Shown here piece after piece: positions 12,607 through 18,697 of a stretch of 33,723 nt of DNA (position 1 is its first letter; every line of letters begins with the position of its first letter). The notes under the pieces are model-generated. The model was given only the letters and a program-made list of their open reading frames with translations. It did no database searches and had not been told where the DNA came from. The stretch comes from Nanobdellota archaeon (GTDB taxonomy: Archaea > Nanobdellota > Nanobdellia > Woesearchaeales > CG1-02-33-12), in NCBI GenBank assembly GCA_018819345.1, contig JAHJQG010000001.1, forward strand, positions 1 to 33,723, in the 5' to 3' direction. A program made the position numbers and the translations under genes.

Positions 12607-15222
12607 TCAAACCTCATATCTTAAAATAGCAGCTATCTTGCCAAGCTCTCTTAGCTGAACACCTTCTCTTGTTTCTGTTGAGATTATATTAACAGTAGTG
12701 CCAAATGTTTTTGCCAGCTTCTCCATTTCATCTATTATATTGTCATCAAGGCTTTCTGAAAGCAATAATATATTTACAGATCCAATTTCAAGGTTTTTCT
12801 TTACCTCATCAAGGCCATAGCTAACCATTCCGGGCTTTGTTGATAACAGGTTAAAGAATTTCCCCATTATCTCTTTTTCAGCTGCTACCTCTTCTTTTGC
12901 CAATACATCCTGTGATCTGTCTAATAATTCCTGCAGGCCAAATTCTTCGGTATAAGATAAATCCTTTATTGCAATTATTTTGTTTTTTAATTCTGTTGTG
13001 ATATAGCCGCCCTCAACAAAATCATATTTTGTAGGGCCAGGGCCGCCAACAATTATTCCCTTAAGCTCCTTTAGTGTTAGAAACTGGTTTTTCATGTATT
13101 CTGCAACTTTCTTGTAATGGTCTTTTGCAGCTCCCTCTCTTATTCTTGCGAACCTAGCTGCTGAATTATGAGTAATTATTCCATTTGCTATGAAGTTTTT
13201 GTTTTTGACTGATATATCAATCATTTTTACTTTCTTATTGATTTTTTCTATCTTGTTTATTTTAATTGGAAGAATTGGATAATTGTAAATAACCTCTAAT
13301 TGATTATAAAGTTTTTTATCTTTAATATTAGATAAAATTGAATTTTTGAAAGTTTGTTTGCTCATCATCCTTTCATTTCTAAAAAAGTTATTCACTTTAG
13401 GAAACAATTCAAGATTATAGCCTGATTTTTCTATTAATTTCCTTATTTTTCTTCCTGAAACTATTATTTGCCTTGAATAGCTTGAATCTGATTTTTTATT
13501 AAGGAGAGTATTTAATTTATTAGTTTTTTCATGAAAGCTGAAACCAATGTGTTTTTTGAACAATTGAATTGATTTTTTTTCAGTTATATCCACTGTAAAT
13601 CTCGGATTATTGCTATATTTATTTGCTTTATTGTCATATTCCAGCAATGAACTTAAAATAGAAAACCTTAACAGTGCAAGTTGGGTATGTTGAGCCAATT
13701 TCTTATTATTTATTCCCAGAGCAATTCCTCTTTTGCTAGCAACATATCCATCTGCATCAAATAATCCTCTCAAGAAAGCTGCAACAATCCCATTATCAGA
13801 TAGGAGTATTTTTTTAGGGATTTCAGAATCTAAAGCTTTCCTTATTTCCGGGAATTCTTCTTTGATTAATCTAACCAAGGGTCTGCTAGTAAATCTTATT
13901 TGGTGGTAGTTTTTGCTTTCTCTAAACCTATAGCTGGAATTAATTTTGAAGAATTGATTGAATTTTCTCTGGTAAGTTAACGCTAATTGTTTATTTTGCT
14001 CAAAGAAAGTAACCCTGTCAGTTTCTATGCAACCATCCCCTATGAGATAGCCTAAAAATTGAGCAAATTCCTTATTTAAAGTATTTGGTAAACTTATATT
14101 TCTATACATGTAATGATTAGTATAGTCTTTCAAAAATTTATCAAAATCAATATTTAACTTACTACACAACCTTTTTAATGGCATCCTGCATGCAGTTGAT
14201 TTACCAAGTTCATAACGGGAGATTGTTGTTTGTGTTAAACCTGCTTCTTTTGCCAATTGCCTTTGAAGCAATCCCTTTTTTAATCTTCTTTTCTTTAGAA
14301 ATTCCTGGCCTTCTTTGGTTATGATAAAAGAATTATAATATTTTTTTGAATTTATTTTTTGTATTTTTCCTTTGATGTATATTTTTTCAGGCATTATTAG
14401 ATAATCTCCCTGCTTTAATTCCTCAGCAGGTTTTTCAATTATTTTTTCAGAAGTTGCTACAAAAAACAAATGATCTTTAGATGATTGAATTTCTAAGCGG
14501 GGATTTTTAGTAATAATCTTGTAAATTTTGTTCTTCTTTACATTCCATTTATCTATGATATTTGAATCAGAAACTGCAAAATTATTTTTAATCATAACAG
14601 ACTTGATTATATTTGGATTATTAACAATTTCAATTTTAGGAAGAGAACCATCAGATAATTGGATTAAGGATTCATTTACAAGACATTGTCCCCCTGCTCG
14701 TTGTTTTCCAGGAACCTGTGAATGTGTCTTTACCAAAGGAACTATTGTTTTTCCTTTTAATAAAGCAATGTTTGCATCTCTCCTGTCCATCACAACAAGG
14801 CCGTAAACCTCTTTTGTGTCAAGCATATCTCTCAATAAATCAAGGACAAACTGCTTGTCGCATCTGTAAATTCTTGTATTCAAAGGCACTGGCGGCTCTA
14901 TGCTCCATACCTCTAAATCAATCTGGCCTTCTCTTTCAGCAACATTTCCTGAGAAAACAGCCAAGCCATGTTCTGGTGTTTTCTTAAACAAGCGCAAGTG
15001 CTGAACCATTCTTTCAAGGCCATCTGTAACATTCTTTCTTGTTGAAGCTGATTTTATATTGGTTGCAGTCCCCTGCTCCTGCTTTAGATGGTTTATTATC
15101 TTGTTTAAGTCATATCCTGCAGGCATGTACACTGTAATAAGCTCTGTGTGCGGCCTTCTGAATACCTCGAGCTTTTTGATAAATTTCTTTAGTTCATACC
15201 TTTGTTTTTCAGTTAGTGCCAT
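12607..15222 (-). CDS. prf1: Peptide chain release factor aRF1 containing an intein
   Basis: NIKS motif TATNIKSASTRKNV; N-extein ends VPGKQRAGGQ and C-extein starts SAARFARIREGAAKDHYK; Tyr/IIVGGPGPTK; 871-aa precursor, 364-aa spliced product. Confidence 0.95.
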   Translation of the reverse strand: MALTEKQRYELKKFIKKLEVFRRPHTELITVYMPAGYDLNKIINHLKQEQGTATNIKSASTRKNVTDGLERMVQHLRLFKKTPEHGLAVFSGNVAEREGQIDLEVWSIEPPVPLNTRIYRCDKQFVLDLLRDMLDTKEVYGLVVMDRRDANIALLKGKTIVPLVKTHSQVPGKQRAGGQCLVNESLIQLSDGSLPKIEIVNNPNIIKSVMIKNNFAVSDSNIIDKWNVKKNKIYKIITKNPRLEIQSSKDHLFFVATSEKIIEKPAEELKQGDYLIMPEKIYIKGKIQKINSKKYYNSFIITKEGQEFLKKRRLKKGLLQRQLAKEAGLTQTTISRYELGKSTACRMPLKRLCSKLNIDFDKFLKDYTNHYMYRNISLPNTLNKEFAQFLGYLIGDGCIETDRVTFFEQNKQLALTYQRKFNQFFKINSSYRFRESKNYHQIRFTSRPLVRLIKEEFPEIRKALDSEIPKKILLSDNGIVAAFLRGLFDADGYVASKRGIALGINNKKLAQHTQLALLRFSILSSLLEYDNKANKYSNNPRFTVDITEKKSIQLFKKHIGFSFHEKTNKLNTLLNKKSDSSYSRQIIVSGRKIRKLIEKSGYNLELFPKVNNFFRNERMMSKQTFKNSILSNIKDKKLYNQLEVIYNYPILPIKINKIEKINKKVKMIDISVKNKNFIANGIITHNSAARFARIREGAAKDHYKKVAEYMKNQFLTLKELKGIIVGGPGPTKYDFVEGGYITTELKNKIIAIKDLSYTEEFGLQELLDRSQDVLAKEEVAAEKEIMGKFFNLLSTKPGMVSYGLDEVKKNLEIGSVNILLLSESLDDNIIDEMEKLAKTFGTTVNIISTETREGVQLRELGKIAAILRYEV
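13165..14685 (-). mobile_element. Intein (507 aa) with LAGLIDADG homing endonuclease and XRE-like HTH, inserted after GGQ
   Basis: Starts Cys (CLVNESLIQLSDG, block A), SSKDHLFFV (block B), FLGYLIGDGCI and FLRGLFDADGYV (dodecapeptides), NFIANGIITHN then Ser+1 (blocks F/G). Confidence 0.96.
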
Positions 15223-18112: not shown

Positions 18113-18180
18113 ATGCCCCAATCCACCAAAACAAATAGTTGGGGCTGTAGGGTAGCTTGGTTTATCCTTTCTGGTTTGGG

Positions 18181-18197
18181 TTGTTAAAACACAAGAA
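18181..18197 (+). other. tRNA intron 1 (17 nt, position 37/38)
   Basis: BHB: outer helix UCUGG/CCAGA, central helix UUUG (18175-78)/CAAG (18192-95), bulges GGU (18179-81) and AAA (18196-98), inner helix UGU/ACA with UAAA loop. Confidence 0.9.
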
Positions 18198-18218
18198 ACC
18201 AGACGACCCCGGTTCAAA

Positions 18219-18420
18219 CAGCTTCTTGCTAAGCTGGCACGCATGAGCAACATGCTCAAAAATCATAGATTTTTGGCACCAACTAAAGTTGGTTTTTTGC
18301 TTTGCAAAAAAGTCCCTCTAGCTCACTTCGTTCGCAACTGAGCATTGGCTCAGTTGATATTTAAAGGAGGGTATTGCATAAATGCAGGCTCACCAAGTTC
18401 GATCGCAAGAGTTTTGGAAG
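18219..18420 (+). other. tRNA intron 2 (202 nt, T-loop position 59/60), hairpin-rich
   Basis: BHB: outer helix CCCGG/CCGGG, central helix UUCA (18213-16)/UGGA (18415-18), bulges AAC (18217-19) and AGU (18419-21), inner helix including UUCUUGC (18223-29)/GCAAGAG (18405-11); removal gives T-loop TTCAAAT. Confidence 0.88.
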
Positions 18421-18460
18421 TCCGGGCAGCCCCAGTTTATGGTAATATGAGGATAATAAG

Positions 18461-18697
18461 ATGACAAAAGCTAAAGGTTTGGGATCCATTAAAAGATTTG
18501 GAGCAAGATACGGAAGAACAGTAAAGCTAAAGCTGGCCAAAATAGAAAAAGAGCAGAGAAAAAAGCATAAATGCCCCTACTGCAACAGCTTGAAGGTCAA
18601 AAGAGTAGCTGTTGGAATATGGTTCTGCAAGAAATGCAAGGCTAAGTTTACAGGAAAGGCCTATACCATTGCAAAAGAAGAGAAGAAGGTGCTCTAA
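18461..18697 (+). CDS. rpl37ae: Ribosomal protein eL43 (L37Ae)
   Basis: GSIKRFGARYGRTVK, CPYCNSLKVKRVAVGIWFCKKCKAKFTGKAY. Confidence 0.95.
   Translation: MTKAKGLGSIKRFGARYGRTVKLKLAKIEKEQRKKHKCPYCNSLKVKRVAVGIWFCKKCKAKFTGKAYTIAKEEKKVL

Follow-up and report, generated by a model that had tools for sequence, protein, structure and literature searches.

The window of DNA analysed here, 33,723 nucleotides from the 895-kb, 87% complete assembly of a member of the Woesearchaeota (DPANN), contains what we take, with a probability of roughly 0.87, to be a functional tRNA-Pro(UGG) gene, probably the only one in its genome, interrupted by two bulge-helix-bulge (BHB) introns, the body of the T-loop intron being a repeat that moves between tRNA introns. 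The structure of the gene, the covariation of its splice site, the element family to which the repeat belongs, the turnover of the inserts and their sharing among non-orthologous tRNAs were all computed in this study.

Results

The gene lies on the forward strand. Exon 1 (18141..18180), located by ARAGORN in the spliced form, comprises the acceptor 5′ strand, the D arm and the anticodon 5′ half, with the anticodon TGG at 18177-18179. It is followed by a canonical 17-nt BHB intron at position 37/38 (18181..18197), defined by reading the sequence, and by exon 2 (18198..18218), which supplies A38, the 3′ strand of the anticodon stem, the variable loop, the 5′ strand of the T stem and TTCAAA. The second BHB intron, at position 59/60 in the T loop, spans 202 nt (18219..18420), and exon 3 (18421..18434) completes the gene with T60, the 3′ strands of the T and acceptor stems and the discriminator A. 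At the 59/60 site UUCA of the exon (18213..18216) pairs with UGGA of the intron (18415..18418), including one G-U pair, to form a central helix upheld by covariation over 81 introns; the bulges are AAC (18217-18219) and, next to the intron strand of the helix, AG^U (18419-18421). The gene for ribosomal protein L37Ae (18461..18697, same strand), identified by reading the sequence and from relatives, lies directly 3′.

Removal of both introns, as expected of BHB introns, leaves a complete cloverleaf: ARAGORN calls the spliced 75-mer, discriminator A included, as tRNA-Pro(tgg), giving it an acceptor stem of 7 bp and finding the D, anticodon and T arms all intact. The whole precursor folds better than all of 200 dinucleotide shuffles (z -3.9). 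The initial annotation, which had proposed a tRNA-Pro(UGG) interrupted by a canonical intron at 37/38 and by a long BHB intron at 59/60, is therefore upheld with exact coordinates, and its suspicion that scanners may miss such a gene proved well founded, as ARAGORN called nothing on the unspliced gene and no tRNA anywhere in the window, and Rfam gave no match to the gene at its gathering threshold. It had also asked whether this is the only Pro-UGG gene. A second copy was sought by BLAST with the gene region and by Rfam, and none was found in the 87% complete assembly; the tRNA body matched once, and no Pro gene was present among the tRNAs of this genome above the Rfam cut-off. Our wider tRNA set was assembled from searches and short stretches of this genome and its relatives, and the ARAGORN isotypes, which were partly wrong for intron-bearing genes (Pro-UGG appearing as Leu or Ser), were put right by clustering of the exons and by manual inspection.

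The pairing of tRNA-Pro(UGG) with L37Ae recurs in most of the relatives read, other families included, and a T-loop intron interrupts the tRNA in all eight relatives examined. Across seven relatives the exons and the short intron are 95-99% identical (the 17-nt intron is unchanged in 5/5 congeners), as against 34-50% for the T-loop insert, which in these genomes measures 89-132 nt. Because the exons are so conserved next to so divergent an insert, the structure of the gene is far beyond chance, and the worry that the 202 nt might be an assembly artefact can be dismissed since independent genomes show the identical arrangement. Eleven further tRNA-Pro(UGG) loci were taken from beyond the genus and its sister genus, nearly all of them from other families of the order; ten carry a 59/60 intron of 19-60 nt and one has none, and in nearly all of the set a YGRA-type sequence of the intron matches UUCR of the exon. 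To judge from this distribution, the T-loop intron site of tRNA-Pro(UGG) is old, or ancestral, in the order.

For the T-loop introns as a class, splice sites were set from the T stem and the acceptor stem alone, with BHB geometry ignored. ARAGORN called 78 of the 81 candidates once spliced and two of the 81 unspliced. Position 57 of the tRNA and its partner in the intron form A-U in 42 cases, G-C in 24 and G-U in 11, with four mismatches (n = 81), and three tRNA-Pro(CGG) genes with an unusual UCCG loop carry CGGA in the intron, a second compensating position. The central helix averages 3.90 of 4 pairs, compared with 3.72 ± 0.03 when partners are permuted, and the inner helix between the first bases of the intron and its 3′ tail averages 4.27 of 7, compared with 3.10 ± 0.16, a value reached by none of 2000 permutations; as the permutations preserve column make-up and ignore kinship between sequences, these figures serve as a guide. 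The 3′ bulge reads AG^U in 76 of the 81 introns. Covariation thus holds a BHB of 3 nt, 4 bp and 3 nt in which UUCR of the exon faces YGRA of the intron. The inner helix is just fair in many copies under strict 3/3 bulges, so the BHB may be relaxed at some T-loop sites, and a single-subunit EndA would be expected to cut those poorly. On visual inspection, the inner helix frequently runs on into the loop of a hairpin of the insert, H1 (described below), and the two would presumably compete.

The same genome encodes one EndA, of 190 aa, whose closest solved relatives are the N. equitans alpha subunit (3iey) and the M. jannaschii enzyme (1a79), the latter aligning with it almost without gaps; it also encodes RtcB. 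The suggestion in the initial annotation of a heteromeric or three-unit EndA did not hold, as neither a second subunit nor a three-unit chain was detected and the nine genomes contain no convincing paralogue. A single EndA is in keeping with the mostly strict BHB geometry. From the sequences we infer that the T-loop introns are spliced and by which enzyme: most likely, both introns of tRNA-Pro(UGG) would be cut by the single EndA and the exons joined by RtcB.

A DNA search with the first 46 nt of the 202-nt insert and the T arm recovered many other places in this genome and its congeners. The core common to these copies was captured in a covariance model, R1, which matches 12 times in the source genome, between 11 and 19 times in every one of seven others, and once in the ninth. 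In order, the core consists of hairpin H1, a spacer with ACGCA at its end, hairpin H2 and then GCTCGCTnnCGCTCGC. H1 occurs as CAAATG/CATTTG, CAGCTT/AAGCTG or CAGCTG/CAGCTG, its stem held by two-sided changes at three of six pairs; the sequence of H2 varies, a mismatch and a bulged A recur in it, and its mean folding z is -4.1 over 95 distinct segments. Within the insert, copy 1 of the element (18219..18335, forward strand; R1 E = 3.9e-8, as two partial matches of 29 and 33 bits) runs from H1 (18219-18236) through the spacer GCACGCA and extra hairpins in the H2 region to the 3′ motif GCTCACTTCGTTCGC (18321-18335), and a degenerate copy 2 follows on the same strand (18343..18406; 11 bits, with E = 0.0015 when 241 bases are searched). 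It is the extra hairpins of copy 1 and the addition of copy 2 that account for the length of 202 nt. No Rfam family matches the element or the insert at the gathering threshold, and a permissive scan of the gene yielded no more than two weak hits below threshold, to sRNA and miRNA families that are unrelated. Among 85,462 species genomes, the exact H1 motif is almost confined to records labelled Woesearchaeota or Nanoarchaeota, or to bins grouped with them. A viral origin of the element was considered and rejected, the exact H1 motif being missing from 2.9 million viral contigs. One contig labelled Actinomycetota (JABMRD010000023.1, locus L187) carries the element motif and is probably misbinned Woesearchaeota DNA.

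Flanking sequence was read for 113 of the 116 R1 copies. About 77 copies lie in T loops, in at least 17 isoacceptors across the nine related genomes: Val(CAC, UAC, GAC), Pro(UGG, GGG, CGG), Arg(CCU, UCU), Glu(CUC, UUC), Ser(UGA, GGA, GCU), Gly(CCC), Lys(CUU), Thr(UGU) and, by eye, Ile(UAU). The introns that bear them measure from 42 to 202 nt. Far from the isolated oddity that it had seemed, the intron of the window is thus the longest of some 77 T-loop introns built from one element family. The source genome alone has the element in the T loop of ten tRNA genes, and its tRNA-Asp(GUC) (contig C9, 1562-1650) has a minimal T-loop intron of 16 nt, so that short and long types coexist. The other copies are found directly 3′ of tRNA-Val and tRNA-Pro genes, nested within copies, and in a few non-tRNA places. 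Diverged non-tRNA copies were noted in three genomes (G001:C13, G002:C27 and G005:C115), two of them beside apparent start codons of small genes.

The element is rare in other families of the order: outside the Woesearchaeota family of the source, one or two copies occur in 12 genomes (147 genomes were searched in all). Six of these loci were read: three are D-loop introns, of Val(CAC), Glu(CUC) and a third tRNA, one is an anticodon-loop intron of Glu(CUC), one lies in the T loop of Gln(CUG), and one is in an apparent partial tRNA copy adjoining an intact tRNA gene. The source genome and its relatives have many more noncanonical introns in their tRNAs (L019, L020, L022, tRNA-Lys(CUU) and tRNA-Arg(UCU)), the D loop being a notable site, and some tRNAs have two or three introns each.

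Turnover is much faster in the inserts than in the exons. At genus level, the median identity of inserts is 0.58 between orthologous tRNAs and 0.57 between different tRNAs, and 46 of the 77 inserts have their nearest neighbour in a different tRNA. Near-identical inserts (0.92-0.96) occur in different isoacceptors, as in a family of transposed introns. Because turnover outpaces that of the exons and near-identical inserts sit in unrelated tRNAs, we conclude that the inserts move.

Duplicated 3′ exons were seen at about four loci. In one relative (G004) the T loop of tRNA-Val(CAC) is unbroken, and the gene is followed by the element and by a second 3′ exon that is perfect; at the same locus in the source genome and two relatives (G000, G003 and G005) this second exon has decayed. 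In tRNA-Pro(CGG) of two genomes (G001 and G008) a T-loop intron is followed by the exon, the element and a second exon, and in G003 an intact tRNA-Thr(UGU) is followed by the element and a 24-nt repeat of its own 3′ end. It is plausible, on the arrangement of these loci, that an element lying between a tRNA 3′ end and its duplicate represents an intermediate in the birth of an intron. A search for partial 3′-exon copies across all introns found them, a few exact cases aside, no more often than in shuffles, and since only about four loci show the duplication, birth by this route may be rare.

No transposase, integrase or reverse transcriptase linked to the element was found. A Y1 transposase gene is present in most of the genomes; a link to Y1 (HUH) or IS200/IS605 elements was tried and rejected, R1-like flanks being absent around the two Y1 genes checked. 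In the source genome, a Y1-type transposase gene (C40:168-527) shares its contig with one copy of the element, and its flanks do not resemble the element.

Discussion

We propose a model in which a structured repeat of 60-110 nt moves among tRNA introns, with the T-loop intron of tRNA-Pro(UGG) occupying an ancestral 59/60 site and carrying one full and one degenerate copy as its body. The T loop (UUCR) is nearly invariant across tRNAs, so an intron ending in YGRA-AG can build a BHB in almost any of them, and this would explain the spread through T loops of at least 17 isoacceptors. As to how the element moves, our best guess, which we infer from the loci with duplicated ends, is insertion at the DNA level at the 3′ end of a tRNA gene with duplication of the 3′ exon, one copy of which would afterwards be lost. 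Tentatively, and at somewhat less than even odds, we regard the repeat as a selfish, non-coding mobile element that has the BHB intron as its niche, with T-loop introns born by landing at the 3′ end and duplicating the exon. Such an element would spread from tRNA to tRNA as the invariant T loop always supplies half of a splice site, and the host tRNA would keep two usable 3′ ends until one was lost.

The same observations could be read as the trace of a MITE-like DNA transposable element that depends on an integrase or HUH transposase acting in trans. On this reading selection, as opposed to targeting, would account for where it sits, since it would survive mostly in tRNA introns, from which it is spliced out. 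The conservation of H1 and the 3′ motif, the copies beside tRNA 3′ ends and the few intergenic ones, the resemblance of the duplicated 17-24 nt tRNA 3′ ends to att-site or target duplications, and the Y1 transposase of most genomes all suit this account; yet very few non-tRNA copies exist in genomes of 0.9-1.1 Mb, where intergenic insertions should be tolerated, and the Y1 genes checked lack R1-like flanks, which leaves it doubtful in our estimation. Ordinary, vertically inherited BHB introns, made alike by recombination (gene conversion) between tRNA paralogues with no mobile element involved, would agree with the age of the tRNA-Pro(UGG) T-loop introns in the order, the likeness of T arms between tRNAs and the 31 of 77 inserts that have an orthologue among their nearest neighbours. 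We consider this unlikely, however, as the element is found as well in the D loop, in the anticodon loop, 3′ of tRNA genes, nested and in a few non-tRNA places, and near-identical inserts sit between flanking exons that differ.

Two further explanations concern the gene itself. Were the insertion to mark a pseudogene, the working tRNA would have to lie elsewhere or be missing from an assembly that is 87% complete; this is highly improbable, and we have set it aside together with an artefact, given exons that are conserved at 95-99% over eight independent genomes around a diverging insert, the compensating changes at the splice site and the lack of any other Pro(UGG) gene found in this genome. 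Scarcely credible, finally, is the idea that the long insert could be a known non-coding RNA or a group I intron that splices itself: Woesearchaeota rRNA genes do hold group I introns (PMC6125680) and the insert is highly folded, but it falls below the size of a group I core, the ends of nearly all copies obey BHB rules, and Rfam offered nothing at its gathering threshold and two weak, unrelated matches in the permissive scan.

It is well documented that Thermoproteales and some other archaea have T-loop introns, several introns per tRNA and introns that transpose (PMC4090602, PMC4033280, PMC8450103). Noncanonical BHB introns at 59/60 and other positions are known from Crenarchaeota and Nanoarchaeota, and tRNA-Pro(UGG) of Pyrobaculum islandicum has three introns (PMC4090602). 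The Woesearchaeota introns resemble these in position class, BHB logic and the presence of several introns in one tRNA gene, and differ in that those at 59/60 are mostly 80-202 nt long, rich in hairpins and of one sequence family. With the transposed Thermoproteales-type introns of 2010, for which PMC4090602 and PMC4033280 are our sources, they share the occurrence of similar introns across isoacceptors within a lineage; what differs here is a single structured element with a recognisable core and a preference for the T loop within one family, whose copies may be nested, arranged in tandem or placed immediately 3′ of tRNA genes, together with a single EndA gene.

In Caldiarchaeum, integration of a mobile element disrupts a tRNA gene (Sugahara et al. 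2012, PMC3293823). Both that case and ours tie intron gain to duplicated tRNA fragments adjoining the gene, although the Caldiarchaeum insertion is 1.8 kb long with a putative recombinase, whereas the Woesearchaeota elements are 60-150 nt, lack a gene and go with duplication of the 3′ exon. The tandem 3′ exons fit 3′-end insertion with exon duplication, close to the Caldiarchaeum model (PMC3293823), in the few cases seen. Intron-rich tRNAs were also reported in 2024 from the Asgard lineages Atabeyarchaeia and Freyarchaeia (PMC11291895); in these too, noncanonical introns interrupt many tRNA genes of a lineage other than Thermoproteales, but the portion of that report consulted describes neither a shared structured element nor a T-loop bias. 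A survey of the mostly open-access literature found no report of Woesearchaeota tRNA introns, T-loop introns or the element, an absence that is weak evidence. What is new here, T-loop introns and transposition being already known, is a family of long structured elements in DPANN T loops alongside a single EndA gene.

The origin and the jumping of archaeal tRNA introns are unsolved, and the element family makes the question testable, since sister genomes display what appear to be successive stages: an intact tRNA, an intact tRNA with element and second 3′ exon, a T-loop intron, and a decayed second exon. A single-gene EndA beside many 59/60 introns likewise provides a test of the rule that ties noncanonical introns to enzymes of broad specificity. 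As a standard finder misses many Woesearchaeota tRNA genes, reports of missing tRNAs and estimates of genome completeness may be off.

Elsewhere in the window, the gene for the release factor aRF1 (12607-15222, reverse strand) contains an intein directly after the catalytic GGQ (...RAGGQ|CLVNES ... IITHN|SAARFARIREG...), the interior of which has HTH and homing-endonuclease-like regions.
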